Source: Planotetraspora kaengkrachanensis (GTDB lineage: Bacteria > Actinomycetota > Actinomycetes > Streptosporangiales > Streptosporangiaceae). From it: 64,000 bases of DNA. A model generated the notes under the pieces. It was not told where the DNA came from. It was given only the letters and a program-made list of their open reading frames with translations, and searched no databases. A program made the translations under genes and the position numbers. Location of the stretch: assembly GCF_016862895.1 (NCBI RefSeq), contig NZ_BONV01000019.1:124001-188000 (forward strand), given 5' to 3'. Shown here piece by piece: positions 47,529 to 61,195 of this stretch (its first letter is position 1; each line of letters begins with the position of its first letter).

Positions 47529-48412
47529 AGGAACATCCGCCCCCTACCGAGGTTTCTGATAGCACCCGAGACCTGAGTCCTGAAATCCGCCAGGTCGCCC
47601 GGCGACGGTGGGGTGACGACGGACAATGGCGACGCTGCGAGCGTTCTTGCCAGGACGTCGCCGACGCTGTCCGGCGGCCATTCCTCGCGCTCGGACAGAT
47701 CTGTACGGAGATGCAGGGCGAGTTCCAGTAGCAGCGCGGCGACTCCCGACTGCAGTTCGTCGAGCAGGGCCTGTTGTCGCTTGTCCTTGCCGCCTCGGGC
47801 GACAGCCGCGGTCAGTTCACGGTCGCGCTTATTGATGAGTACGCGGAACGTTCCGTAGAAGGGCGCGATCAGGTCTGTGCTCGTTTCCAGATGCCAACTG
47901 GCAGTGGGCGAGAGCCGCGTGTGCGTGAAGTCGATCTCATGGACCGGGAACATGGAGGACATGCTCTCCAGCACCACTCGCTGAACATGTTCTGCAAGAA
48001 CCGAACCGGGGATTGCGGCCACGCCGACTCCTCGCCCCGTCGGGGGGTGAACCAGGCTGATGGTGCTACGAAGCGTCAGGATTCCGGACAGGCGTTCGCC
48101 GACGAGAACGGTGTCGAGGACTGCCGCGCCCAAAGGATCGAACCTCACCGGAGGCGCGGCTTCCGTCATACCAGTCGTCGAACTGGTCCAGGAGATGATC
48201 AGGGCGACGTCGCCGAGGTGGAGTCCCGTCTCTTGTACGAAGCGGTCGACGTCGATCTGGACTCGTCGTGCGGTTCTCAGGTCCGTCCCAGGATCCCAAC
48301 CGTCGACCGCGTCCGGCAACGGACTCCACTCTGTCGCGTCCAGCAACATCCATGGTTCCCACGCGACCGTCCCCGGACTAGGCACTAGGTACGGTCGGAC
48401 GTCAGCCGGCAT
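47525..48412 (-). CDS. uncharacterised protein of the MORC/Z1 restriction system
   Basis: This 295-residue protein has no recognised motif. The N-terminal two thirds are predicted beta-rich (VQIDVDRFVQETGLHLGDVA, LIISWTSSTTG, VHEIDFTHTRLSPTASWHLE), and the C-terminus is helical (LLDELQSGVAALLLELALHL). It overlaps the GHKL ATPase gene by 11 bp and the DUF6339-like gene by 4 bp, so it is an integral subunit or accessory of the same operon. A structural or DNA-binding role is possible. Confidence 0.65.
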   Translation of the reverse strand: MPADVRPYLVPSPGTVAWEPWMLLDATEWSPLPDAVDGWDPGTDLRTARRVQIDVDRFVQETGLHLGDVALIISWTSSTTGMTEAAPPVRFDPLGAAVLDTVLVGERLSGILTLRSTISLVHPPTGRGVGVAAIPGSVLAEHVQRVVLESMSSMFPVHEIDFTHTRLSPTASWHLETSTDLIAPFYGTFRVLINKRDRELTAAVARGGKDKRQQALLDELQSGVAALLLELALHLRTDLSEREEWPPDSVGDVLARTLAASPLSVVTPPSPGDLADFRTQVSGAIRNLGRGRMFL

Positions 48413-50270
48413 CGGACGTCACCTGGCTCACGCGGAAACGAACTACGGCGTCCGGCACGTGTGTGGCGAAGACGTACCAGTCCGATTCCTCTCCTGGGGA
48501 TATCCGGATGGTCTTATCTTGCACGACGACATCTCCAGAAAACGACTGCCATTGCATGATCCGGGGCACGGAGGCACCCAACGGGGGCTCACTCTCGCGG
48601 CCACCCCCTTCCAGGACGACTTCGACGTCCGCGGACAGGACTCGCGCGACGTCCGCCGCAGGGACCTTGACGACGGCGACCAAGTACGGTTGCTGTTGGT
48701 GGACCCGCAACATCGGTGTTCCGATCAACCGGGGCTTCCCCCCTCGTCGCAGCGTCGTACCGCCGTTCGAGCCGTTACCGCCGTTGCTGCCGAGCCCACC
48801 TCCGAAACCACCGGCATCGTGGCCTGTATCACCGGTCTTGTGCTCGCCGCTCAACCGAGCGGGGACGAGGCCGGCGAGCAGTGCCGATAATTGCCCCAGG
48901 CCTTGGCCACCTGGGCCGCCAGCCTGGGGTCCAATGCCGAGGCGCTCGTCCAACTGCTTCTGCACGAAGGTCCGTGCTCCCACGACGACCCCTCGCGCGG
49001 CTCCGCTGAGTCCCTTGGACACCCAGTCGTCGTGCGTCGGTGGCTCGGCGGACGCGAACAACGCATCGGCGTCCTCTGACGCCTTGAACACGCCACCGTA
49101 GGCCAGGCGTGGGTCCGGATGCAGCGGCCCGGGAAGGTAGTCCACCACGAGTTCAGCGACGCGCATACGGGCGACATGGTGCGAAGGTCCTTCGAACGGC
49201 CTCGCCGCCGCGATCACCAGACGCGTACTTTCACCGCCGGCGGCTCCCAGAGCCATCGCGAAGGAACCGGCATGCTTTGGAGGGACAGTCCGTGAGTAAG
49301 CGGCACCCTTACCCGCCCGAACCTCACGTAGAGCTTCGGCGAAGGGCGCCAACTCGTCGAAGCTGTCAGGTTCGGGAACGGGAACCCCCGCGCCATCGAC
49401 ACCCACAACGAAGTGCATCCGATGTCCGTGCTGATCCGGGACCATCTTCGACCACAGGTTCCACAGGATTGAAGACGAGATGAAGGTCGCGGCCTCCTGG
49501 GGCGTACGCTCACGTGCATTCGTCTCGGATCCGTTAGGCCCCAGATCGGCGGCGAGAACCACGATGTCCGTGCCGGTGCGGCCATCTGCGAAGCCCGGCA
49601 ATTTCAATCTCTTCGAAACCGCGTCCGCCTGTTCGGCGAGCACTGGGTCGGGCACGTCGTCCTTTGCTACGAGGCCCCACCAGTGGCGACCGGTGAAAAG
49701 GCGATCGTCGAGATGCCAACTGTGTCCAAGCGCGGCACCCATCAATCGACGACCAGAGGCGCCCCCTGCGGCCGTGTGGGTATCCACGAGGATCGCGCCC
49801 ACCTGACTGAGCCGATAGAAGATTCCCTTCCCGAATCCATAGGTGCCGCCGCCGAACTCGTGATCGCTCGGCTCACCAACATTACGGATGAACTGGACGA
49901 AATCCGGCGTCTCCCCATGGGATCGTTCACCTGCGCGAAGCGGACCGCCCAGCCCTCTGGTATTCCGGTCAGAGATCACCAGCACAACTGATTCGGGTCG
50001 TAGAGCCTTGTCGAGGTCGACGTTCGACCCGCTCTGTGGTCCGGGCAGCAGCAATTCGCGCCAGGCATGAACGTCGTCGCCGAGCACGCGAACATCGACA
50101 CGGAACTCCACCACACCATCGGGCAGGTGTGCATCCCAACTGTTCTGCGCCGCCTCGCGTACCAGGACGGTCAACGGATCCAGCGCCGGCCGACCCAACT
50201 GCTTGACGATGCCCTCAGCCGCAGCCGATCCTTCCGGTGCGAACGGCTGTGACCACCAGCGAACACTCAA
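48402..50270 (-). CDS. MORC/MutL-like GHKL ATPase of the restriction system
   Basis: This 622-residue ATPase has the GHKL boxes near the N-terminus: N-box LVREAAQNSWDAH (E39, N43), G1 VLVISDRNTRGLGG (D101, G106), and the lid GGGTYGFGKGIFYRLS (140-155). A second fold of S5 type probably follows. A glycine/asparagine-rich linker (about 490-520) leads to a C-terminal beta domain. Prokaryotic MORC-like ATPases occur in R-M systems and are thought to clamp DNA. It starts with TTG 50270 through a TTGA overlap with the nuclease gene. Confidence 0.87.
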   Translation of the reverse strand: MSVRWWSQPFAPEGSAAAEGIVKQLGRPALDPLTVLVREAAQNSWDAHLPDGVVEFRVDVRVLGDDVHAWRELLLPGPQSGSNVDLDKALRPESVVLVISDRNTRGLGGPLRAGERSHGETPDFVQFIRNVGEPSDHEFGGGTYGFGKGIFYRLSQVGAILVDTHTAAGGASGRRLMGAALGHSWHLDDRLFTGRHWWGLVAKDDVPDPVLAEQADAVSKRLKLPGFADGRTGTDIVVLAADLGPNGSETNARERTPQEAATFISSSILWNLWSKMVPDQHGHRMHFVVGVDGAGVPVPEPDSFDELAPFAEALREVRAGKGAAYSRTVPPKHAGSFAMALGAAGGESTRLVIAAARPFEGPSHHVARMRVAELVVDYLPGPLHPDPRLAYGGVFKASEDADALFASAEPPTHDDWVSKGLSGAARGVVVGARTFVQKQLDERLGIGPQAGGPGGQGLGQLSALLAGLVPARLSGEHKTGDTGHDAGGFGGGLGSNGGNGSNGGTTLRRGGKPRLIGTPMLRVHQQQPYLVAVVKVPAADVARVLSADVEVVLEGGGRESEPPLGASVPRIMQWQSFSGDVVVQDKTIRISPGEESDWYVFATHVPDAVVRFRVSQVTSDAG

Positions 50271-51253
50271 CGAACGGCCTCCTCGGCGATTTCAGCCAGC
50301 GATGCCCCGGCGCTGAATGGAAGCAACGAAGCCAGGTCGACCTGATAACTGAGGTTTCCGATGCCCAGCGGGAGTGAACCCGCGACGAGGGACGACGGTA
50401 CGACGCGGGGTGTGTTGAACCCGACCACAAGTCGGAGTACCTCATCGATCGAAAAAGTGTCGAGGTCAGGGCGATCAGGTTGGTTCGACCAACCTGCAGC
50501 CGATAATCGCGTGCGAAGGTCCGCGCGCGATGCGACCGCACCGCGGAGTTGATCTACAAGGTCGCTTACTGTTCGGCCGTCAGGGTCTTCCACCACGCTT
50601 AAGAGGACGAGGTCCAGTGGGCGTTCGTCGTGGGTGTTGAGTTGCTCCAACCCATGGATCACGATGCTGTCGCTCACAGCGCTGAGCCCCTTCACCTCAA
50701 GACACCGGGTGGTCGCCTCGAAGTCGTGCGGTTCGTTGAGCGGTCCCCGCCACGCATCCACAGGGAACGCGGGATCCGCTTCGACAAGAGATGAGAGGAC
50801 CGTGAGCTCGGCGAACAGGCCCAACTTCGCTTGACGCGACAGACCGCGAAGCAGACTGCTTCGAAAGAGCCGCCTCCATCGCATGACCGCATCGATCGCC
50901 GCCGATGCCGGTCGCTGGGCATCGGACACGGCCTCCAGCACATCGGTCACGATCTCGTCGAACTCCGAAAAGAGGTCCGACTCTGCGCACGATACATCGA
51001 CGTACGCGAGCGCCGGGCCTCCGAAGTGCAGCTTACGAATCGCCATCTCGAGCACCGCCGGTTTGGGGTCGACGGACACTGTCTCGTCGATGGCAGGAAC
51101 AAGGAGATGGCGAGCGCCCTTGCCGTCGAGCGCCACGCGGCACGGCTCTGCACCGCACACGACGTCCAGCGGGAAGGAAGAGAGATCCCTTGCGCGCGGG
51201 GGCATCAGAACAGCCCATGCTCGCTCCAGCATGCTCGCTTCGATCTCCGTCAC
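50267..51253 (-). CDS. PD-(D/E)XK motif protein (DUF4420-type nuclease)
   Basis: This 328-residue protein contains a PD-(D/E)XK core: GLFAELTVLSSLVE with E149, W168 in AWRGP, HDFEA with D177, and CLEVKG with E186 and K188, plus a following HGLEQL helix. The domain order matches the DUF4420 group found with Z1 helicases and MORC-like ATPases. It is presumably the DNA-cleaving subunit. The start is GTG 51253, overlapping the Z1 stop as GTGA. Confidence 0.85.
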   Translation of the reverse strand: MTEIEASMLERAWAVLMPPRARDLSSFPLDVVCGAEPCRVALDGKGARHLLVPAIDETVSVDPKPAVLEMAIRKLHFGGPALAYVDVSCAESDLFSEFDEIVTDVLEAVSDAQRPASAAIDAVMRWRRLFRSSLLRGLSRQAKLGLFAELTVLSSLVEADPAFPVDAWRGPLNEPHDFEATTRCLEVKGLSAVSDSIVIHGLEQLNTHDERPLDLVLLSVVEDPDGRTVSDLVDQLRGAVASRADLRTRLSAAGWSNQPDRPDLDTFSIDEVLRLVVGFNTPRVVPSSLVAGSLPLGIGNLSYQVDLASLLPFSAGASLAEIAEEAVR

Positions 51254-53811
51254 GACATCTCCTCGGTGTCGGTGTCGAGAGCCTCGTCGACGTTCTCGCT
51301 CTCGACATCCGTCAGGTCAACCGCGACATGGGTGGCCTGAACGCTCTTCGTCCGAACGTCTCCGGGGAAGGTGATTCCCAAGCCGACCACCGCCGCCACC
51401 GCCCCGAGCGCTACACGCAGCGGAGTCGCCGTATCGGTGTCCTGCTTCGGGTTGACGGGCTCACTCGTCGGCTCGATCAGGTAGAGGACGACCAGACCCC
51501 GGTCGTGATGGATCGGATCGCTGTTACGCAGTGCGACGAGATCGCTCTCGCTCAGTGCTCGTGCTTCCGCGGCCGTAAGACCAAGATCAAGCGCGCGATC
51601 CTGCTTGCTCATCAGCGTCTTGATGTCGGCGCGTTCGGCGTTGAGGTCGTGCGGGTTAAGCCGGGACCGAATCGAGTACCTGACGTCCAGGCCGCCCAGC
51701 TTGGCATCTCCGCCCTCACCGATGACGACGGCGACGGACCAGGTCGCCAGGCTCGGGGGATCGCTCGTGAGTTGCTGGTCGATGTACTTGACCATGAGCG
51801 TTGGATCCAGGTCGGGGGAGTCCTCGTGCACTTGGTATCGCGAGAGGAAGGTCTTCACGAGCGACACCGGAACGTCGCGAATCAGCCGGGCCCCACCCAC
51901 GTCCTCGATCCGACCGTGCCGGACCGCCTCCTGGACCAGGTTCTCCGCGGCCTGGCGGTTGCCGTCCAGCCAGTCGGTATCTTCGTGCTTGAAGTACCGG
52001 GTTTGCAATCGACGTCCGGCGTAAGAGATGAAAGCCGGCTGGGCCGCGCCCATCTTGGCCGTGATCCGGAGCGCCGGGTGCGTTCGGATCCTCACCGCCA
52101 CCTGGGTCGGCGTCAGGTTCTCCCGCTGATAACGGTCGATATCGTCCCGCATCTCGTGTTCGACGGTGGCGAGATGCCGGAACGCCGCAGAGAGGCTGGG
52201 CGTCATCCAGATCCTCGGAAGATCCTCGAATCCGGTCCGATACCCGAACCAGCGTCCCATCTGGAGCAGGGTGTCGTACGCCGTAGCACCCCTGACGAAG
52301 AAGCTGACGACAAGGCCTTCCAATGTCAGCCCTCGGGACAGGGTGTTACCGCCCACGGCGATGGCGACCACGGAGGGGTCGGAGTAGTTGAGTCGGTCCT
52401 GACTCCGGTAGTTGTCGAGAATGATGCGCGTGGCCGCGAGGACGTCGTCCAGGTGCGGCAGCACGTCGTCGAACGAGTTCTGCTTCCGGTCGAAGTCCTC
52501 GGCCGGAACCCGTGACGACTCCTTCTCCCATAGGTTTCGCCACTCATCGAGGGTCTCGGGACGACCGGAGGCGAGTCCCTCCCTGGCCTGTTGCCGTAGC
52601 GTCTCCAAGGGCGCCCGATAGCTCTCGTGAACGGCGATCTTGACGGATGTGTGGATGAGCATCGTGCTGTGGCCGCTGTCACCGCGCGCCCGGCGAGCGG
52701 CCGTGGCCAACCAGAACCAGCGGACTGCCGTCACCAATTCGTCGATCATGGTGGGAGTGAACCCATCCGCGGGTTCCTTGCTGCCAGGACGTAAGAGGGG
52801 GACGTCCTCCTCCGCAACGAGGCGGACCATGTCATAACCGTCCGGCGGACCCTGATCGTCGGCGGGCTCCCCTTCGACCGCATCACGACCGAAAATCTTT
52901 TCGGGGCCGAAGTATCCGTCGGGACGTGGCAAATTGAGAATGAACGACTTCGGATACAGATCGTCTTGCGTGGGATCCACGAAAACGTTGGCGAAAGGCG
53001 TTGCGGTGTAGCCGACGTACGTGCACCGCGGCATCAGGCTCAAGAGTCTTCGGATGAGCGGGTTGATTCGGCCCGTGGCCACCGAGGCCTGATCCGCCTC
53101 GTCATCGATGATCAGGACTGGTGCGGCCTCGAGCGCTTTCCGCCCGTTGGGCGTGTCCAGCCACTTGATGAGCTTGCTGAGTACAGCGGCGTTCTTCTTG
53201 ACGACCGCCAGAACCGTCTTTTCTGGACTTAGTGCGGCCGAGGCGTCGTGTGACGGCTTCACGAAGTCGCGAGACTCCTCCGTCAGCGTCACCCAACGGT
53301 CGGGGTTGAGGTCCTTCAGATACTGGTCAAGGCGCACCTGCGTCTGACGGCGAAGTCCGTTGTGGATGCCGGAGAGCACGATGACAAGGCGGTACTGCAC
53401 GTCCGCCAACTTCGCGATGACGGCGGTGAAGTTGGTGGTCTTTCCGCTCTGTACGTAGCCGACCACGAGTCCCTTCGCGTCCCACTTGGAACGTTCCGGC
53501 CGTGGAGTATGGGCGACAACGGTGCTGGAGGAATGATCCACGGAGGAAGTCCGGTCGTCCGGCCATCCTTCGGCCTTGAATCGGTCCTTCAGCGCCAGCC
53601 AATAACGGTCGGACTCCCCTGGTCCGCTGTACCAGTCGTCTGATCCGGCCGTGATGATTGGCGGACCACCGGCCTGTACCTTCGCCTTGTCGGCCTCGAA
53701 CTGACGGCGAAACTCGTCGACGGTTTCTTTCGGTAGCGACGAAAAGCTGGCCACAGCCGCCTCGACGCCGTTTCGCCTGGCCCAGTCCGCGAAGACGGTG
53801 TAAAGGCCCAA
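51250..53811 (-). CDS. Z1-domain superfamily II helicase/endonuclease-like protein
   Basis: This 853-residue protein has SF2 ATPase motifs: Walker A GYVQSGKTTNF (118-128), DDEAD box VLIIDDEADQAS (232-243), motif III YVGYTATPFANV (265-276), and motif VI LLQMGRWFGYR. The Z1 domain follows in the C-terminal half. It is the first gene of a leftward operon. TTG 53811 is supported by a strong AAAGGTGGTG Shine-Dalgarno. Z1 proteins are the helicase component of MORC-type restriction systems. Confidence 0.9.
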   Translation of the reverse strand: MGLYTVFADWARRNGVEAAVASFSSLPKETVDEFRRQFEADKAKVQAGGPPIITAGSDDWYSGPGESDRYWLALKDRFKAEGWPDDRTSSVDHSSSTVVAHTPRPERSKWDAKGLVVGYVQSGKTTNFTAVIAKLADVQYRLVIVLSGIHNGLRRQTQVRLDQYLKDLNPDRWVTLTEESRDFVKPSHDASAALSPEKTVLAVVKKNAAVLSKLIKWLDTPNGRKALEAAPVLIIDDEADQASVATGRINPLIRRLLSLMPRCTYVGYTATPFANVFVDPTQDDLYPKSFILNLPRPDGYFGPEKIFGRDAVEGEPADDQGPPDGYDMVRLVAEEDVPLLRPGSKEPADGFTPTMIDELVTAVRWFWLATAARRARGDSGHSTMLIHTSVKIAVHESYRAPLETLRQQAREGLASGRPETLDEWRNLWEKESSRVPAEDFDRKQNSFDDVLPHLDDVLAATRIILDNYRSQDRLNYSDPSVVAIAVGGNTLSRGLTLEGLVVSFFVRGATAYDTLLQMGRWFGYRTGFEDLPRIWMTPSLSAAFRHLATVEHEMRDDIDRYQRENLTPTQVAVRIRTHPALRITAKMGAAQPAFISYAGRRLQTRYFKHEDTDWLDGNRQAAENLVQEAVRHGRIEDVGGARLIRDVPVSLVKTFLSRYQVHEDSPDLDPTLMVKYIDQQLTSDPPSLATWSVAVVIGEGGDAKLGGLDVRYSIRSRLNPHDLNAERADIKTLMSKQDRALDLGLTAAEARALSESDLVALRNSDPIHHDRGLVVLYLIEPTSEPVNPKQDTDTATPLRVALGAVAAVVGLGITFPGDVRTKSVQATHVAVDLTDVESENVDEALDTDTEEMS

Positions 53812-53971: not shown

Positions 53972-55273
53972 TCATGCTCTAACGCGGTGGATGGACAGGT
54001 GGGCGAGGACGGCGTGGTTGGCCTCCCAGCCGTCGGGGAACTTGACGGGCACGTTGAGCTGGACGCGTCCCGTGGACGGATGGTTGTCGAGCAGCTCGGC
54101 GATCCCCGCGCGGGCGACGACGATGCAGGCCTGGCGGTGGCGTGAGGTGAGCACGCACAGGCGGCCGGATTCGAGGTGGAACGCGGTGGCGTCGCGCCGT
54201 CCCGACAACGGGTGCAGGACGATGGTGACGTCGTATTCGCGGCCCTGAAGCCGGTTGGCGGTGTCGACGGTGACACCGGCCGGCACGCCGGCGGCGCGGA
54301 TCGCGGCGACCTGGTCGTTGTGGGCGCAGCCGATGGCGATGCGGTCGGGACCCACGTCGTGTGAGCCGTTCTCGTCGCGGGCGACGGCTCCTCGCTGGAG
54401 GAGGCGGGTGGCCAGGCCGGCGCAGGCCTGTACGGCCTCGGCGTCGGTGCGGATCGTGTGGCGGCTCGGAAGCTCATGCAGTGCCCACCCGGTGGCGGCG
54501 GCCTCGTTGAGCGTGCGGTCCCACGGCACCGGGAAGCCGGCGGTGGTGAGCTGAAGCTCACGGTCGCCGGCGGCCGTACCGGACCGGAACGACGCGAAGG
54601 GATAGAACGCCTCGGACACGAGGGGAGCGGCGCTCGCCGGGAGCCGCCACGAGACGGGCAGCCGGTGTACGGGCAGGTCGTTGAGGCGTCCGATGACGGC
54701 GACGGCGCTCTGCATCGGGTCCCAGGCGAGGCCGGCCCAGCGTTCGGTGTCGACGACGGAGAACGGGTCGAGCTGGCCGGGATCGCCGACGAACAGGGCG
54801 CGGTCGAACAGGGCGGCGATGGCCAGCAGCTTGTCGGAGCGCATCTGGTAGGCCTCGTCGACGATCGCCCAGGTCCAGGTGCGGTCGGACACGTAGGCCC
54901 ACTTGTCGGCCGTGGCGATCACCACCGTGCAGGCCTCGACCTGGTCGATCTTGTTGGAGGCGGTGACGCCCGGGTGGCGCGTCACCCTGGGCGGCACGGA
55001 GAATCCGTCGCTGTGCAGGCGGCCGATGGACAACGTGGGGACCTTGGTCGCCAGTTTGTCTGTGAGGTCGTCAACCTGCTCGTTGGTCTGCGCCACGATC
55101 ATGAGCCGCTCACTGGCGTCGGCGAGGGTCGTGGCCGCGGTGACGACCAGGGTCGTCTTGCCGGCTCCCGGCGGGGAGTCCACGATCACTCCCCGGTGCG
55201 GGCCGCCGATGAAGTCGGCCAGGATGGCTTCGGTCGCCTCCGCGGCCGCCTGCCCGGGAGTCGTCGTGATCAT
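53972..55273 (-). CDS. SF1-type (Dna2/UPF1-like) helicase ATPase core
   Basis: This 433-residue protein has the full SF1 motif order: Walker A VDSPPGAGKTTLVV (31-44), MIVAQTNEQVDDL (motif Ia), WAIVDEAYQM (Walker B), LFVGDPGQLDPF (motif III), LPVSWRLP (motif IV), VTVDTANRLQGREYDVTIV (motif V), and a motif VI helix with CVLTSRHRQACIVV. Motifs and order fit SF1B enzymes such as Dna2. It lacks the accessory barrel, which may be supplied by the preceding gene's product. It is the last gene of a four-gene operon, joined by ATGA overlap. Confidence 0.88.
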   Translation of the reverse strand: MITTTPGQAAAEATEAILADFIGGPHRGVIVDSPPGAGKTTLVVTAATTLADASERLMIVAQTNEQVDDLTDKLATKVPTLSIGRLHSDGFSVPPRVTRHPGVTASNKIDQVEACTVVIATADKWAYVSDRTWTWAIVDEAYQMRSDKLLAIAALFDRALFVGDPGQLDPFSVVDTERWAGLAWDPMQSAVAVIGRLNDLPVHRLPVSWRLPASAAPLVSEAFYPFASFRSGTAAGDRELQLTTAGFPVPWDRTLNEAAATGWALHELPSRHTIRTDAEAVQACAGLATRLLQRGAVARDENGSHDVGPDRIAIGCAHNDQVAAIRAAGVPAGVTVDTANRLQGREYDVTIVLHPLSGRRDATAFHLESGRLCVLTSRHRQACIVVARAGIAELLDNHPSTGRVQLNVPVKFPDGWEANHAVLAHLSIHRVRA

Positions 55274-56730
55274 GACCAGGCCTCCTGGGCGTCCTCGTCG
55301 GTGGGCATGTAGGGCTCGGGCGGGCCGCCGTGTGTCCACGGGGTGTCCTCGCCGGCGGGCAGGCGCGGACGTTGCCCGCCGCCGGGGTCGAGTTCGGCGT
55401 AGCAGACGACGTCGCCGACCACGGGCAGGCTGCCGGGGGCCGGGGTGGCGCCGCGGCCCATCTGGTCGTTGACCTGGATGACGACGAGGTCGCCGGTGAT
55501 GTCGACGATCTCGGTCTTCTGCTTGCGGTTGCGGCTGGAGACGAGCCTCCTGCCCGGCGAGAGCCGTACGGGATCGCCCGTGCGGATCGTGACGAGGGGC
55601 CGGGGCGCCGGACGAGTTTTGCCGGCGGGGACGATCCGCCGGGTGGCGTCCACCGCGACGACCTCGCCGGAGAACGCCTTGCCGGCGACCCGGTGCTCGG
55701 TCATGACGAGGGGGTCGTCGAAGGCGCGTTGCGCCTCATAGGCCTGCAGGGCGGATTCCAGGTCGGCCAGGCGGATGGCCGCGCTGACGGCGCCGTCGAC
55801 GCGGCCCCGTGGGAAGCCTCCGTCGGCGAGGCGGGCGGTCTCACGGGTGAACTGGTCACGGTCCCTCGCCCAGCGGGCCTCGACCGTCGCCGCTTCGGGA
55901 AGCCCGCGCAGTAATCGGACGCCCTGCCACATGAGCGTCCAGGTCGGCTCCAGCTGGCTCCGCAGCGCCTCGCGGATCTGGGCCGGCGACCCCGACGTCT
56001 CGTACGCCTGAATCGCGTGCACCAGCACCTGGCCGTCGAAGTCGGGATGCGTCTCGGGCCCGGCGGGCGGTGAGGTGAGCGGGTCCTCCGCGGCCAGGGC
56101 GGCCTCGGGCCCGTTCTTGCCGTCAGGTGGAGCGATCCACGCGAGCTGCGTGGCGAGGCTGGCGTCCTCCATCGAGCTCTGCCCGGTGGCCCAGTGGAGG
56201 GCGAGCGCGTCGGTCATGGAGACCAGCGACGACGATCCCGCGTATTCGGCTCGCTCGGCGAGGAAGGTCAGCCACTGGCCGAGGACCGGCACGGAAGGGT
56301 GAACCGGGTAGGGCCCGTCGGTACGGCGGAACCTGGTCGAGCGGCCGAGCAGTTTGGCGAAGGCGACGCCGCCGCGGTTGGGCACCAGGAGTTGCGGCGC
56401 GTCGGCGCACCGTTCGTACGGAGTCTTCGCCTCGACGGTCTCGGTGACCCCGGCGAAACCCTCGATGTAGGGCAGCAGCACTTCTGCGAGTTCGGCCATG
56501 AAGGCGAAGCGCAGGTCACGGTTGCGCGGTTGGGGGACCAACAGGAGTCGCGGGTTCGCCGGGTCGGTGCCGACGAGCGCCCCCAGCGGCGCCGCGGCCT
56601 CTCCGGCGAGCTTCAGGGGGATGAACACCATCGGTGCGGCGGACAGATGCACGTGCCGTACGGTCGCGACGGGCTGAGCGCACCCGGTCTGTACGGCCAG
56701 TGCCCGCGCGTAGGAGCTCATGATGCTCAA
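55270..56730 (-). CDS. uncharacterised protein with C-terminal beta-barrel, helicase partner
   Basis: This 486-residue protein has no known catalytic motif. The N-terminal part is mixed alpha/beta (VFIPLKLAGEAAAPLGALVG, LRFAFMAELAEVLLPYIEGF) and the middle is helical. The C-terminus (about 345-450) is beta-rich: AFSGEVVAVDATRRI, VTIRTGDPVRLSPGRRLVS, TEIVDITGDLVVIQVNDQM, LPVVGDVVCYAEL. This resembles the barrel inserted in Dna2/UPF1 helicases. I infer it completes the helicase encoded next, with which it overlaps by 4 bp. The start is TTG 56730 via TTGA overlap; ATG 56721 is possible. Confidence 0.6.
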   Translation of the reverse strand: MSIMSSYARALAVQTGCAQPVATVRHVHLSAAPMVFIPLKLAGEAAAPLGALVGTDPANPRLLLVPQPRNRDLRFAFMAELAEVLLPYIEGFAGVTETVEAKTPYERCADAPQLLVPNRGGVAFAKLLGRSTRFRRTDGPYPVHPSVPVLGQWLTFLAERAEYAGSSSLVSMTDALALHWATGQSSMEDASLATQLAWIAPPDGKNGPEAALAAEDPLTSPPAGPETHPDFDGQVLVHAIQAYETSGSPAQIREALRSQLEPTWTLMWQGVRLLRGLPEAATVEARWARDRDQFTRETARLADGGFPRGRVDGAVSAAIRLADLESALQAYEAQRAFDDPLVMTEHRVAGKAFSGEVVAVDATRRIVPAGKTRPAPRPLVTIRTGDPVRLSPGRRLVSSRNRKQKTEIVDITGDLVVIQVNDQMGRGATPAPGSLPVVGDVVCYAELDPGGGQRPRLPAGEDTPWTHGGPPEPYMPTDEDAQEAWS

Positions 56731-57818
56731 GCGACGGCCTCCGTGTAGATCCGCCGGACGTAGCGCAGCTGTTCGGCGATTTCGAGCTGTTCGGTGGACG
56801 GCAGCCGGCTCCCGTCGGCGAGGCCGAGGACGGCGGGGACGGACTCGATGCCACCCAGTTCGTCTCTGGCTGCACGCCCGAGCATGTCCGTCGACCCGTT
56901 GTCGCGCGCTTCCGCACGGCAGAAGAGGGACATTTCACAGCTCGCCAGGCATTCGGGTGCGAACCGCGCGTCGACGGTGGCGACCGCCTTGCTCACCTCG
57001 TCCGGCGACTGCGTCTCGAGGTCGAAGGTGATCCCGAGCGGCAGTTCGTCGAGGATGCGGTCGATGCGGGGCAGCCGGGACAGCTGCCGCTCGAGTGCGG
57101 CCAACTGCTGGCGGACGTCGAGCAGCGTCGCGGTGGGGTGGTTGGCGAAGTCCTTGGGGCAGACCAGCACGACGTTGTGGGAGACCCGCTCGGGGTCGAG
57201 CCCCTCGGCGGCGAACAGCGCACGCAGCGCGTGCACGTAGACCGCGGACTGGCGGGCCGCCGCCGCCACCTGTCCGGCGTCGGCCTGGTCGTCGATGACG
57301 GCGAAGGACTTGATCTCCACGATGTGGAAGCGGCCCTCGATCTGGAAGGCGATGACGGCCGGCTCGAGGTAGACCTCGTGGCCCGCGACGGTGAGCTTGA
57401 GCAGCGGGTGGTCGAAGAGGGTGCCGGCTCCGTCTCCGTCGGTGGCGGCTCGCTTGAGCAGCGCCCGCGTGCGGGTGTGCCGTACGTGGTGGTCGTCGTT
57501 TCCCCCGACGTCGGAGATGTCGGCGTAGGACGCCTCGGAGATCGACAGGTCGAGCGTGTCGCGCAGCAGACGCAGCAGGTGAGCGCAGCCGTTCGCCTTG
57601 ACGAGGGCGTCGAAGGACTTGGCCCGGGTGATCGCGAACGGGGACTGCCCGAAAGGAGCAGGAAAGCCGACGTGGACGGCCGTCTTCTGCTTGTCGACCC
57701 CGGCGGCGTCCAGCAGGGCGCGCCGGTCGCAGCCGGGGTTGACGGCGAGCGCGGCGATGGTGCGGGCGTTGTGGTCGAGAGGCTCGGCGGGGCCGCGGAG
57801 CGTGTCGAGACGGGTCAC
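56727..57818 (-). CDS. Cas4/RecB-like nuclease with four-cysteine (probable Fe-S) signature
   Basis: This 363-residue protein has the RecB/Cas4 nuclease motifs: an acidic strand LEPAVIAF (E152), VEIKSF (E168, K170) and QSAVY (Q190, Y194). One cysteine near the N-terminus (C30, VNPGCDRRALL) and three near the C-terminus (C290, C294, C300 in ECLASCEMSLFC) match the [4Fe-4S] arrangement of Cas4, AddB and Dna2. It probably cuts single-stranded DNA. GTG 57818 is fixed by the GTGA overlap with the upstream gene. It works presumably with the SF1 helicase of the same operon. Confidence 0.8.
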   Translation of the reverse strand: MTRLDTLRGPAEPLDHNARTIAALAVNPGCDRRALLDAAGVDKQKTAVHVGFPAPFGQSPFAITRAKSFDALVKANGCAHLLRLLRDTLDLSISEASYADISDVGGNDDHHVRHTRTRALLKRAATDGDGAGTLFDHPLLKLTVAGHEVYLEPAVIAFQIEGRFHIVEIKSFAVIDDQADAGQVAAAARQSAVYVHALRALFAAEGLDPERVSHNVVLVCPKDFANHPTATLLDVRQQLAALERQLSRLPRIDRILDELPLGITFDLETQSPDEVSKAVATVDARFAPECLASCEMSLFCRAEARDNGSTDMLGRAARDELGGIESVPAVLGLADGSRLPSTEQLEIAEQLRYVRRIYTEAVA

Positions 57819-58582
57819 GCGGTCCTCGCCGTCTTCAGCCCGGCGCCGAACAACTGGGTGACCTCGTTCAGTTGCCGCTCCGCGCGTTGGGCGGCCTCGC
57901 CGCGGTGACTGATGTCGCTCTCCTCGTGTACGGCGAGTTCGGCGCCGGCGGCGGCGATCACCTGGGTGGGATCGGCCTGGTCGAAGCCGTCGACGGCTCC
58001 CGGGATGTTCTGTGCCATCCGCGTCAGCAGGCGGTAGGCGGACGGCGAGGCGTCCTCGCCCGCGCCGGTGAGCCGCATGATGTGCTCGGCGATGCGGGTG
58101 GCCGAGGTCAGGAAGTCCGCGCGAGGGCTGAGCGGTCCGATGATGCGGTTCTGCATCGGCCAGGTGCTGACGGCCAGCAGCCCACGCGCCGGCGACAACA
58201 GCTCGGAGGTCAGCGCCGCACACAGGTAGTACGGCCGGGCGTACGGCGAGCCGCGGAAGGACTTCTCCTCGTCCCGGCGCAGGCTGGTCAGCTGGCTGGT
58301 GGTGATGTGGCCGGCGAAGAAGGCCTCGTTGACCGTCACGATCATCTTGGTGGCCGTCGGCACGCCGAGCAGGGTCAGCGCCTGATGGACCTGCTCGCGT
58401 ACGGGGAGGAGGGGGGCCTTGGCCGGCTCGGGCTCGGGCTCGAGCGCGTCGTCCCAGGCCCGCTCGGCGGTGCGGAGCTCGGCACGCAACGTCCGGACGG
58501 TCGCGTGATCCCCGGCGGCTTTGGTGGCCCGTATCTCCGAACGAAGCTCGGCGATCCGTTTTTCCAGAGCGTCTAGTTCCAC
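57815..58582 (-). CDS. uncharacterised protein with N-terminal coiled coil
   Basis: This 255-residue protein starts with a charged coiled coil (about 1-50: LEKRIAELRSEIRATKAAGD). A helical domain follows with TATKMIVTVNEAFFAGHITT, SLRRDEEKSFRGSPYARPYY and LLSPARGLLAVSTWPMQNRI, which could be a winged-helix-like DNA-binding region. I do not recognise a family. GTG 58582 is inferred from the onset of the coiled coil. It is the first gene of the nuclease/helicase operon and might recognise DNA or recruit the nuclease. Confidence 0.6.
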   Translation of the reverse strand: MELDALEKRIAELRSEIRATKAAGDHATVRTLRAELRTAERAWDDALEPEPEPAKAPLLPVREQVHQALTLLGVPTATKMIVTVNEAFFAGHITTSQLTSLRRDEEKSFRGSPYARPYYLCAALTSELLSPARGLLAVSTWPMQNRIIGPLSPRADFLTSATRIAEHIMRLTGAGEDASPSAYRLLTRMAQNIPGAVDGFDQADPTQVIAAAGAELAVHEESDISHRGEAAQRAERQLNEVTQLFGAGLKTARTA

Positions 58583-58691
58583 GGTCCCGCAGCGTATCAG
58601 AGGTCCCACGGGAAACCTATGAATTCCACTTGCTTCCATGGATTTCCAGTATTACCGTTTCATGGCACAACGCTGGTGATGGGAGTGAGCG

Positions 58692-59150
58692 ATGCGACCT
58701 CTGCGACAGGGACGTGCGATCCATCTGCTGGACATCGAGAACCTGGCGGGTTGTCCCCAGCCCAGTACGGAAGAGGTCGAGCACGTCATGGACGCCTATC
58801 GCCGGCTGGTGCTGATCGGCCCGATGGACCAGTTCATGGTCGCGGTCAACCACAACGCGCTCGTCGGAGTCGGCCTGGCCTTCCGCGGCGTGCAGTTGCT
58901 CACGCGTTCCGGCCCCGACGGCGCGGACAGCGCGTTATCGGAGACCGCGCTCGCCGATCGGGTGGATCTGCGGTTCGAGCGCGTCGTCATCGGGTCGGGT
59001 GACGGCTACTTCGCCGACCTGGCGCGGTGGCTCGCCGATCACGGCGTCCAGGTCTTCGTCGTCGCCCGCCCCAGGAGCCTCAGCTGGCGCCTGTACGCGG
59101 CGGCCCGCGAGTTCGCCTACCTCGACCCCGCTACGCACGAGGCAGCCTGA
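58692..59150 (+). CDS. NYN-domain (PIN-like) ribonuclease
   Basis: This 152-residue protein shows the NYN/PIN acidic residues: D in IHLLDIENLAG, D in GADSALSETALADRV, and D in VVIGSGDGYFADLARWL, followed by GVQVFVVARPRSLSWRLYAAA. NYN proteins are metal-dependent RNases, often found with RNA-processing or defence genes. It diverges from the four-gene nuclease/helicase operon across 109 bp, so shared regulation is likely. ATG 58692 has a GGGAG upstream. Confidence 0.82.
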   Translation: MRPLRQGRAIHLLDIENLAGCPQPSTEEVEHVMDAYRRLVLIGPMDQFMVAVNHNALVGVGLAFRGVQLLTRSGPDGADSALSETALADRVDLRFERVVIGSGDGYFADLARWLADHGVQVFVVARPRSLSWRLYAAAREFAYLDPATHEAA

Positions 59151-59272: not shown

Positions 59273-59923
59273 TCAGTCCTTCTGCAGCAAGGTGATTGTC
59301 GACTTGTCCTGCCGATCGACGAACATGACGACGAGGTTCAGCCGTTCGTGTGCGAGTGGAGGGAGTCGCTCTGCCAGGCGGCGGAACTGCGGATTGTCCG
59401 GCAGGGCGAGTCCGTACTTGGCGGTGGGGTCCCGCAGTCGTTGGACCAGTTCGCCGAGGGCTCCGATGAAGTAGTTGGCCTGCTGCGCGGGATTGCCGGC
59501 TTCACCTTTCGCTTCCAAGTAAAGGTGCTCACGACCACGATGCGCTTCGATGTCGACCCCATGATTGCGCCCCCACGCCACGGTGACGCTCCAGCCGGCG
59601 CCTTCTAGATAGGCCTTCACCGCCGCCTTGACGGAGTCTTCGCTCAGCAGATCGCCGGAACGACGGACGGCCTCGTGACCTGCTGGACGGAGAGGAGTCG
59701 GTGGGGCGACTTCGGTTGTGGGAACAGTCGAGACGAGTGAATTAACGATCTTGCCGTCCGGGCCTACTCTGCGCGCGAGCATGCCACGGGCCTCAAGTCG
59801 CCGACAGACCTGATTGATCGTTTGCCTTTGTGGCGCACCCAACCGAAACGCAAGGGTGTCATCGTCCAGAGGTCGGCTGGATATGCGCAAGGCTTCTACA
59901 ATGCGCTCCGCCCAAGAGGCCAT
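59273..59923 (-). CDS. winged-helix plus PD-(D/E)XK nuclease
   Basis: This 216-residue protein has an N-terminal winged helix (1-65; LDDDTLAFRLGAPQRQTINQ, ARGMLARRVGPDG) and a C-terminal Mrr/HJR-like nuclease domain. The nuclease shows E96, D124 in HGVDIEAH and ExK (E137, K139) in LYLEAKGEAG, followed by a Q-rich helix. Such fusions occur in type IV-like restriction or DNA-repair contexts. The start is ATG 59923 (GTG 59926 adjacent). The region is more AT-rich than the host backbone. Confidence 0.75.
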   Translation of the reverse strand: MASWAERIVEALRISSRPLDDDTLAFRLGAPQRQTINQVCRRLEARGMLARRVGPDGKIVNSLVSTVPTTEVAPPTPLRPAGHEAVRRSGDLLSEDSVKAAVKAYLEGAGWSVTVAWGRNHGVDIEAHRGREHLYLEAKGEAGNPAQQANYFIGALGELVQRLRDPTAKYGLALPDNPQFRRLAERLPPLAHERLNLVVMFVDRQDKSTITLLQKD

Positions 59924-60022
59924 CACGGAAACTCACGCTAACTGCGGTCGATGCGATCGGCCAGAGGCGATCATGACTGAGGGCGTGTTTCCGGACGTTT
60001 TGAATTCAGGTCCAGTGGCCAG

Positions 60023-61195
60023 TCAGCGGTTGGCCGGATCGTGCACACTATCGCTGAACCAGATAAGGCTTTCGACCACGGTGTTGTAGACATCGGGTTC
60101 CGTCAGCTCTGCGATCTTGAATGTCGGATAGAGTTCCAGCCTGGTCGCAGGAATGTCGATGCCGGGTGCCTCGTTGAGGCGCTGACGCAGCTCTTCTCTG
60201 AACTCGGGGTTGTCGAAAGGGCGTCTGTTTTTGAGCGTGCCGAAGGGCACCTCCACGGTCGTGGTGTACAGGCGGACCATGTTCAGTGACTGCTTGCCGC
60301 GTCGAATCGTCAGCGCACAAGATGGGCTGGCGGCTTGACTGAACTGGGTGTCACCTCCGCGCTCCCTCCACCAGTCGAGCAGGGTGCGTACCGCCGTGGC
60401 CGTCTGCCGGCCGTTCGCGTCCGCGACCTGTGCGAAAAATCGCGCTTCGTGCTCAGCTGCATCCCCCGGCGTTTCTTCGATCAACTCTGGATCGATCTGT
60501 TCTGTTTCTGGACTCGGAGGAAGCGCCTGGACCGGACCGTCCAACGCGACCAGAATTGCCCTGGCCACTTGTTCCAGCCGTTCGATGACCGAGTAAGTCG
60601 TGTCGGCGTCGATGGGAATCTTCTGGCCAGAACGATCCGGATCGCGGTCGGCCTCGTGGGAGATTTTGTTCCTGCGGTTCACGATTGTTGAGATCTCATC
60701 GATCACATGTTCATGCCTGATCTTCTCCCCGTCGGGGTCATCAGAGGAAAGGACCTTGGCTACTTCCGGCCATAGCTGGACATCGCTCACCATGGCGAAG
60801 CCTTCTCGGATCTTGTTCGGATTCTGGTATGACCTCCATCCGAGTGCCTCTTTCAGATGGCTGCGGAAGGCCACCTCCAGTGACGTAGTGCCGAGATGGA
60901 CCGCCTCGAAAAGTTTCATCGAAACCTGGATGTCCAGGAATTTCCGAGGCTTGGCGGTCTCCGACTGCTGCGCGATGACCGGTGCCCGATGATAGATCTC
61001 CTCATGGACCCAGTGATCGATCGCCGCCACTGCCTGCACCCATGCCGCCCGATAGAGGTCGTCCACATCGAAGGAACCGACCCCGAGGCCGGAGAGTAAC
61101 TTGCCGCCCTCGACCAGGCGCTTGGCATAGTCGAGATTCCGCTGAAGATCGGCGAATGCGGGCGTGGGAGGTGAGTGCAGCACGATGATCCTCAT
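60023..61195 (-). CDS. HEPN-domain protein, probable RNase
   Basis: This 390-residue, largely helical protein has the HEPN signature R-N-x3-H in NRRNKISHEAD (R175, N176, H180), preceded by WVQAVAAIDHWVHEEIYHRA. That arrangement fits RiboL-PSP-type HEPN RNases. A C-terminal region of about 100 residues (VRLYTTTVEVPFGTLKNRRP) is of unknown type and may be a regulatory or immunity module. HEPN RNases are common abortive-infection effectors. Its start ATG 61195 overlaps, on the opposite strand, the 5' end of the next gene; no Shine-Dalgarno is apparent. Confidence 0.75.
   Translation of the reverse strand: MRIIVLHSPPTPAFADLQRNLDYAKRLVEGGKLLSGLGVGSFDVDDLYRAAWVQAVAAIDHWVHEEIYHRAPVIAQQSETAKPRKFLDIQVSMKLFEAVHLGTTSLEVAFRSHLKEALGWRSYQNPNKIREGFAMVSDVQLWPEVAKVLSSDDPDGEKIRHEHVIDEISTIVNRRNKISHEADRDPDRSGQKIPIDADTTYSVIERLEQVARAILVALDGPVQALPPSPETEQIDPELIEETPGDAAEHEARFFAQVADANGRQTATAVRTLLDWWRERGGDTQFSQAASPSCALTIRRGKQSLNMVRLYTTTVEVPFGTLKNRRPFDNPEFREELRQRLNEAPGIDIPATRLELYPTFKIAELTEPDVYNTVVESLIWFSDSVHDPANR

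Follow-up and report, generated by a model that had tools for sequence, protein, structure and literature searches.

A proposed split Dna2-like helicase-nuclease operon of filamentous actinobacteria with a predicted non-catalytic nuclease in the Planotetraspora clade

A 64,000-nucleotide stretch of the Planotetraspora kaengkrachanensis genome, analyzed here as a whole and referred to as the window, carries an operon of four genes, A, B, C, and D, that we read as a Dna2/Bad-type helicase-nuclease divided over separate genes. According to this reading, to which we assign a probability of roughly 55%, B-C-D is mainly a vertically inherited genome-maintenance factor that works in the window's clade as a motor with a non-catalytic B, whereas extra copies in other genomes have been recruited to cassettes of SbcCD, with or without Wadjet, and of pPIWI-RE. 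Machines of the Dna2/Bad type are a known kind; what is new is a loss across the window's clade: in each of the 18 members sampled, the nuclease lacks its motif II Asp or its motif III Glu, and the rest is kept.

The operon lies on the minus strand at 53972-58639 (Table 1), and its genes are joined by three exact 4-bp overlaps (GTGA, TTGA, and ATGA), as an earlier inspection of the letters, here called the sequence-only reading, had described. Its GC content of 70.9%, compared with 69.2% for the window and 63.6% and 62.1% for the two flanks, is host-like as that reading had it, so that the operon looks native and its flanks less so. The source genome holds a single copy. A recent mobile origin of this copy is unsupported, given its GC content and its grouping with its own genus in a tree of B, C, and D.

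Conservation of the gene order reaches well past the genus. We analyzed 60 loci that were hand-picked from the match lists of the order, class, and phylum, some genomes contributing two; L033, L037, L039, and L040 were dropped as they belong to the same genomes as L100-L103, L187 (1 kb) was left out, and L045, L048, and L118 were excluded from the tree and kept in the residue table. In 58 of the 60, B, C, and D lie next to one another, and the three are separate genes throughout the sampled loci. The B-C pair lies ~49 kb from D in L147 (G429), where a mannanase gene follows C, and ~36 kb from D in L148 (G338). D is still present in both genomes, and its retention after separation points to a functional link with B-C. 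With gene starts taken from a simple codon-model caller, 4-bp overlaps were counted approximately as 26/52 for A/B, 45/74 for B/C, and 39/72 for C/D in other loci. The B-C-D order also occurs in two distant actinobacterial genomes (L158 and L159); in the former, a 564-aa protein with an RNase_H_2 domain (L158:4059-5753, minus strand) follows the operon.

The set is widespread in filamentous actinobacteria. At the level of the order, 143 of 249 genomes have B; at that of the phylum, 16 of 396 do. C was found in 70 of 394 genomes of the class and, counting any copy, in 141 of 150 genomes of one genus, labeled g74. Extra copies of g74 reach 93% identity with those carried by named Streptomyces plasmids, from which we take this genus to be Streptomyces. 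In the class of G832, B was detected in one of 100 genomes, G832 itself, and no match to B was found in phages or viral contigs.

D is, by its profile matches, a UPF1/Dna2-type SF1B motor core with intact helicase motifs, too short to accommodate a barrel and without a stalk of its own. The SF1B ATPase core noticed earlier is borne out by Pfam AAA_11 (E 8e-11) and AAA_12 (E 3e-7) and by profile matches to SMUBP-2, DNA2, and UPF1, and 12 of 14 helicase motif positions are invariant in 71/71 homologs, the remaining two being kept in 70 and 69. When compared with a single-chain UPF1-like helicase of another actinobacterial genome, D aligned only from residue 195 of that protein onward (hhalign probability 98.8%); the residues of that helicase before this point presumably form the barrel and stalk missing in D. 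In PADLOC, matches of D are confined to the helicase components of multiple models, MkoA among them.

Searches of Pfam, NCBIfam, PADLOC, and PHROGs assigned B to no family. In the window it carries ExK and QxxxY motifs and four cysteines, one N-terminal (C30) and three C-terminal (C290, C294, and C300, spaced CX3CX5C). The C-terminal cysteines are present in 74/74 other homologs and Cys30 in 72/74, the two exceptions being rows without an N-terminus; all four are kept even in two homologs at only 23-25% identity. Four cysteines spanning the nuclease domain are the iron-staple signature of AddB, Dna2, Cas4, and Bad (PMC7430649), and by this signature B probably holds an iron-sulfur cluster. The best structure model of B (mean pLDDT 79) has Cas4 SSO0001 and MGME1 as its top solved matches in Foldseek, with DinG, RecE, EXO5, and AdnAB lower in the list, which agrees with the Cas4/RecB-like fold proposed before. 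Profile matches of B to solved structures of designed repeat proteins and RecR were set aside because they are weak or driven by repeats.

In the source genome, Ala154 takes the place of the motif II Asp of B and leaves the RecB-family catalytic motif set incomplete, a point that the sequence-only reading had missed; an active nuclease is thus unsupported here. Residues were tabulated for 74 B homologs plus the window, 18 sequences falling within its clade and 57 outside; B of L128, found by tblastn and missed by the gene caller, is not part of these counts. The clade unites Planotetraspora, Microtetraspora, Rhizohabitans, Spongiactinospora, and unnamed genera (FastTree support 1.0). Either the motif II Asp (changed to Ala, Ser, Arg, or Gly) or the motif III Glu (to Ala or Thr) is lost in 18/18 members, and both are lost in L127; B of a further genome, L016, is also changed and is 82% identical to that of L106. 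Outside the clade, D154 is Asp in 57/57 sequences, distant ones included, and motifs II and III are intact in 55/57, the exceptions being L125 (Glu to Gln) and L142 (Glu to Leu, Lys to Arg). Seven columns are at least 94% conserved outside and less than 70% inside the clade: 154 (D), 168 (E), and 190 (Q), which belong to motifs II-IV, G66 and E70, which we take to be motif I, and 275 and 286. We found no shared residue change fixed across the whole clade, which keeps the cysteine ligands and Tyr194 and conserves K170. Between the window and four congeners, B is 87-94% identical, and dN/dS amounts to 0.17-0.185 for B, 0.125-0.17 for C, and 0.10-0.125 for D; by this value, B is under purifying selection and is not decaying. 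To judge from these substitutions, the nuclease activity of B has probably been lost in the window's clade.

C likewise falls outside all families of Pfam, NCBIfam, PADLOC, and PHROGs. The best of its models (pLDDT 84, pTM 0.81) predicts long helices between residues 250 and 338 and a six-stranded barrel at 352-445, with Dna2 as the top solved match in Foldseek (E 0.013, probability 1.00, 169 columns) and Ighmbp2 at rank 19. The model thus suggests that C contributes a Dna2-type barrel. The barrel announced by the sequence-only reading is therefore predicted and has Dna2 as its best match, but the E-value and a negative sequence comparison, given below, leave the likeness suggestive and short of significance. 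A comparison with a viral fold library returned nothing below E 0.02 and nothing informative, and a profile match of C to the solved structure of NucC was discounted as weak or repeat-driven. The C-terminus of C carries, after the barrel and near the start of D, a near-invariant TPWTHGGPP (55318-55344) with its Trp, Thr, and His each kept in 73/74 sequences; it is perhaps a docking motif. Taken with the fold matches of B, the alignment of D, and the conserved gene order, the predicted barrel supports the split-Dna2 architecture that had been proposed. Two of the three findings that would have refuted the sequence-only reading, a C without barrel fold and a gene order confined to a single genome, did not come out.

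Copies in g74 are of two kinds. The core-type copy is B-C-D without A, placed in a conserved block between a histidine kinase gene and a GGDEF-EAL gene; this block was seen in all 15 core-type loci opened (7 + 8), as judged by at least two of three marker genes, and in L185 B-C-D is inverted relative to the markers. Ten neighbors examined in four loci are metabolic, transport, signaling, or unknown genes and one UvrD-like helicase gene, with no defence gene recognized by Pfam. At least 26 of the 150 g74 genomes gave two or more match rows, some of these being one gene in two pieces, and 19 further g74 loci were opened, of which eight are core type and 11 are extra copies in 10 genomes. SbcC and SbcD genes lie divergently beside A-B-C-D in six of the 60 loci, on two Streptomyces plasmids, and at eight of the 11 extra g74 copies (only part of SbcD is visible in L171). 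Wadjet genes follow SbcCD as JetA-D in L098, L099, and L173 and as JetA-C up to the end of the stretch in L153. On Streptomyces plasmid p1 (L099:2-2185), SbcCD is in fragments, and A-B-C-D and JetA-D are intact by appearance. SbcCD-linked copies do not form one clade; they make up two supported groups plus L138, within a larger group that includes copies without SbcCD.

Genes of pPIWI-RE adjoin three of the 11 extra g74 copies (L172, L174, and L175) and L142. The cassette of L142 comprises Y/REase, Z, and a PDDEXK protein (PADLOC PprPDDEXK), counterparts of which were found by similarity in the other three loci. For two of the four genomes (L191 and L192), Pfam confirmed the pPIWI-RE protein; the remaining two carry a gene that suits it in length and location. 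In the Z protein, which continues as a DinG helicase (PMC3702460), the Z domain alone gave a Pfam match. The nuclease site of B is intact in SbcCD-linked copies at 16/16 loci and in 15/15 g74 core-type copies but in 0/4 pPIWI-RE-linked copies, all four of which have motif III altered to Leu-Ile-Arg and lie beside the PDDEXK gene. On one 8.5-Mb contig (G1081 contig 1), the same set of SbcCD and A-B-C-D occurs ~22 kb from both ends (L178 and L179), placed as if inside terminal inverted repeats, and in G1047 and G562 further extra copies are ~7 and ~15 kb away from the end of a contig. A telomere-linked function, suggested by such positions near chromosome or plasmid ends, was dropped because core-type copies on single-contig genomes sit millions of bases inside. 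Collectively, the links to SbcCD, Wadjet, and pPIWI-RE suggest one end-processing module serving several defence cassettes, and a defence role for the extra copies is plausible.

In the window's clade, B has probably lost catalysis yet is kept under selection; the likeliest form of its complex there is a 5'-3' DNA motor whose nuclease has been retired. B, C, and D would form a single complex in which DNA threads through the iron-stapled ring of B, C supplies the stalk and the beta-barrel that join nuclease to motor, and D, as an SF1B motor, pulls DNA in the 5'-3' direction. Such a machine would act on DNA ends or flaps in repair or replication. Where B is active, the complex may trim 5' flaps or ends with SbcCD alongside as initiator, and for extra copies we propose recruitment to SbcCD(-Wadjet) and pPIWI-RE cassettes, where they would provide the end-processing arm. 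Without any cutting, the motor of the window's clade would unwind or remodel DNA, possibly passing it on to another nuclease. A more specific proposal, which we put forward tentatively, is that varied substitutions turned the split Dna2 of the Planotetraspora-Microtetraspora clade into a pure processive 5'-3' unwinding or looping motor with its ring kept, a natural counterpart of the engineered, nuclease-dead form of Bad, and that the active form is the resection arm of SbcCD(-Wadjet) cassettes.

Several points weigh against a split Dna2 with a role in genome maintenance. Only the best of five models is good for B (pLDDT 79 versus 60-68) and for C (84 versus 60-71), and the C-terminal Cys region of B is modeled at low confidence. 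All Foldseek matches of B, those to Cas4, MGME1, EXO5, and AdnAB among them, are above E 0.001 with large rmsd, and some are unrelated proteins (TDP2). The match of C to Dna2 is below significance (TM 0.20 of query), and most other matches listed for C are ATP-synthase-type barrels. A profile of C found nothing in one single-chain UPF1-like helicase (hhalign E 0.67), a comparison of low power with a single-sequence template. Since extra copies occur in defence cassettes, the ancestral role could be defence, and E152, close to the lost Asp, might rescue catalysis.

That the operon serves primarily anti-phage or anti-plasmid defence in all lineages, the window's included, its motor-nuclease degrading or unwinding invading DNA, we consider unlikely. 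It would explain the divergent position of extra copies beside SbcCD, with all or part of JetA-D in four loci, the pPIWI-RE neighbors and chromosome-end positions of others, and what lies directly downstream in the window, where MzaC-like (E 8e-105) and MzaD-like (E 4e-22) genes, both under curated NCBIfam cut-offs, flank D at 48402-53811; a PLD-DEAD-DUF3427 helicase gene holds the place downstream of D in three of four Planotetraspora congeners. However, C is present in nearly all g74 genomes and in one chromosomal block at every core-type copy opened, and the ten neighbors examined include no defence gene known to Pfam; A, B, and C lack a model in PADLOC-DB 2.0, B is unmatched in phages or viral contigs, and the nuclease site is lost in the window. 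The defence-rich region of the sequence-only reading exists in so far as MZA-like genes flank D, but none was found in the 8-kb operon flanks of the four congeners, which makes this flank recent and strain-specific. A defence island was therefore rejected as explanation of the window copy, and the defence role deduced from this neighborhood is unsupported for this genome; the link was found for other copies instead. We accordingly retain the view that the window copy looks like an inherited genome-maintenance factor.

About equally improbable is that the barrel of C is a generic small-barrel fold and the operon a loose set of iron-sulfur nuclease, DNA-binding protein, and SF1 motor rather than a split Dna2. 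The insignificant E-value, the many ATP-synthase-type barrels, and the missing profile similarity to a UPF1-like helicase would all follow from this, and the N-terminal half of C has no apparent Dna2 counterpart. Dna2 is nevertheless the best solved match, in an alignment longer than the barrel alone, and the long helices before the barrel, a D without barrel and stalk, and the gene order all fit Dna2.

More doubtful still is a nuclease that remains active in the window's clade because E152 or a different acidic residue stands in for the motif II Asp. Position 152 is E (70) or D (2) in 72/74 homologs, and K170 and Y194 are conserved in the clade. Yet the Asp at 154 is kept in every sequence outside the clade, including two distant homologs without E152, other clade members have lost the motif III Glu instead, and the columns of motifs II, III, and IV, and of motif I as we read it, vary together in the clade.

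Gene A encodes a charged, probably helical N-terminal region and, after it, a conserved domain in which the motif SLRRDEE occurs. Above curated cut-off, it matched nothing in Pfam, NCBIfam, PADLOC, or PHROGs; the one pointer to the coiled coil of the sequence-only reading, a weak Pfam match (E 0.035), lies below it. A is present in 41 of the 60 sampled loci and absent from the whole genome in 9/9 searched genomes whose locus lacks it; we propose that it is an optional accessory subunit. A NYN-domain gene, also reported by the sequence-only reading, indeed diverges from A in the window, as it does in seven of the 60 loci and in some genera only. An RNA-surveillance complex, in which a UPF1-like RNA motor has the NYN RNase as partner and B as a non-catalytic scaffold, would suit the resemblance of D to UPF1 and SMUBP-2 but is very improbable, as NYN is not beside A in 53/60 loci, DNA-end proteins of the SbcCD type recur with other copies, and B belongs to a DNA iron-staple family with its site intact in most lineages.

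Table 1 Features of the operon and its divergent neighbor in the window
Feature	Position	Strand	Description
Gene A	57815..58639	-	274 aa if started at ATG 58639, 255 aa if at GTG 58582; proposed accessory protein
Gene B	56727..57818	-	GTG start, 363 aa; iron-staple PD-(D/E)XK nuclease fold (Cas4/AddB/Dna2 type), predicted catalytically dead here
Gene C	55270..56730	-	TTG start, 486 aa; predicted alpha/beta N-terminal part, long helices, barrel
Gene D	53972..55273	-	ATG start, 433 aa; SF1B UPF1/Dna2-type helicase core
NYN-domain gene, putative RNase	58692..59150	+	Divergent from A; Pfam NYN E 6e-6, 27.2 bits vs cut-off 24.2

In the three congeners with the PLD-DEAD-DUF3427 helicase gene, it occurs in either orientation (example L100:12400-15486), giving the site after D the appearance of an insertion hotspot. 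Upstream of the NYN gene, the window holds two minus-strand genes (59273-59926 and 60023-61195) that have no PADLOC or NCBIfam match and are not beside the NYN gene in the congeners' loci; the former, by eye, appears to encode a winged-helix and restriction-endonuclease-like protein. Rad50/SbcC-like genes are present elsewhere in the source genome, none adjoining the operon.

If B-C-D is a split Dna2, this architecture exists in nearly all sampled genomes of g74, presumably Streptomyces with its workable genetics, together with SbcCD-linked paralogs, and the role of bacterial Dna2 would become directly testable. By losing the cutting residues throughout and conserving the rest, one clade offers a natural experiment on why a Dna2-type enzyme has a nuclease ahead of its own motor.

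The split form was not found in the family libraries (Pfam, NCBIfam, PADLOC, and PHROGs), and the listed titles and abstract beginnings of open-licence papers yielded neither it nor the near-constant presence in a genus, the SbcCD/Wadjet and pPIWI-RE links, or the clade-wide loss, which is no proof of absence. No such operon is mentioned in the available parts of PMC10853773, PMC12839542, PMC11090510, PMC5704561, PMC13118837, and PMC4255298. With Cas4, often encoded close to cas1/cas2, B agrees in fold and in the four cysteines, but no Cas4 model matches it. AddAB and AdnAB are multi-subunit helicase-nucleases with a RecB-family nuclease domain and UvrD-like SF1A motors, whereas the motor of the operon is of the UPF1-like SF1B type and its nuclease has a gene of its own. 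In HerA-NurA, too, helicase and nuclease are encoded separately, and the pair works with Mre11-Rad50 to resect ends; extra copies here adjoin SbcCD; unlike that arrangement, core-type copies and the window copy have no adjacent SbcCD. HerA and NurA are, moreover, protein families other than those of B and D. The three-gene pPIWI-RE system has been described as a triad, which adjoins four extra copies here and to which A-B-C-D is an additional divergent module; the available sections of that description mention no link between the two (PMC3702460). UvrD-Cas4-like nuclease-helicases are fused in many bacteria and are separate genes of one predicted operon in some, mostly Clostridiales (PMC5704561). 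They share with the operon a Cas4-like nuclease and an SF1 helicase, but theirs is a UvrD-like 3'-5' helicase rather than a UPF1/Dna2-type motor, and the accessible text names no barrel protein. CnuH is a UPF1-like helicase with an OB fold and a helical stalk in a single chain (PMC11090510).

The closest parallels are drawn with Dna2 and Bad. Dna2 is ordered as a nuclease, a barrel held by two long helices, and a helicase of ~450 residues (PMC4716839), and the gene order B-C-D corresponds to this domain order, with a nuclease fold of the iron-staple PD-(D/E)XK type and a UPF1-type SF1B motor. The operon differs in being three or four separate overlapping genes, in the extra N-terminal part of C, in the additional protein A, and in the lost nuclease site of the window's clade. 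We do not class it as a Dna2 member, because Dna2 is a single chain and because the catalytic motif is incomplete in this genome. Bacterial Dna2-like enzymes have been reported as rare, with no known role; Bad of Geobacillus is a DNA2-like helicase-nuclease in one polypeptide, with an uncharacterized central domain and an active nuclease, of a type reported to be sporadic in bacteria and to have a second class in Mycobacteria and Rhodococcus (PMC7430649). The same source describes a processive, loop-forming motion of Bad that is evident only with the nuclease suppressed, for instance by D150A. D150 of Bad would presumably be the equivalent of D154 of B. Bad and the operon have in common a bacterial iron-staple nuclease and an SF1B motor; they are set apart in that Bad is a single chain and the operon consists of separate genes, and the nuclease-suppressed state of Bad may be what occurs naturally in the window's clade.

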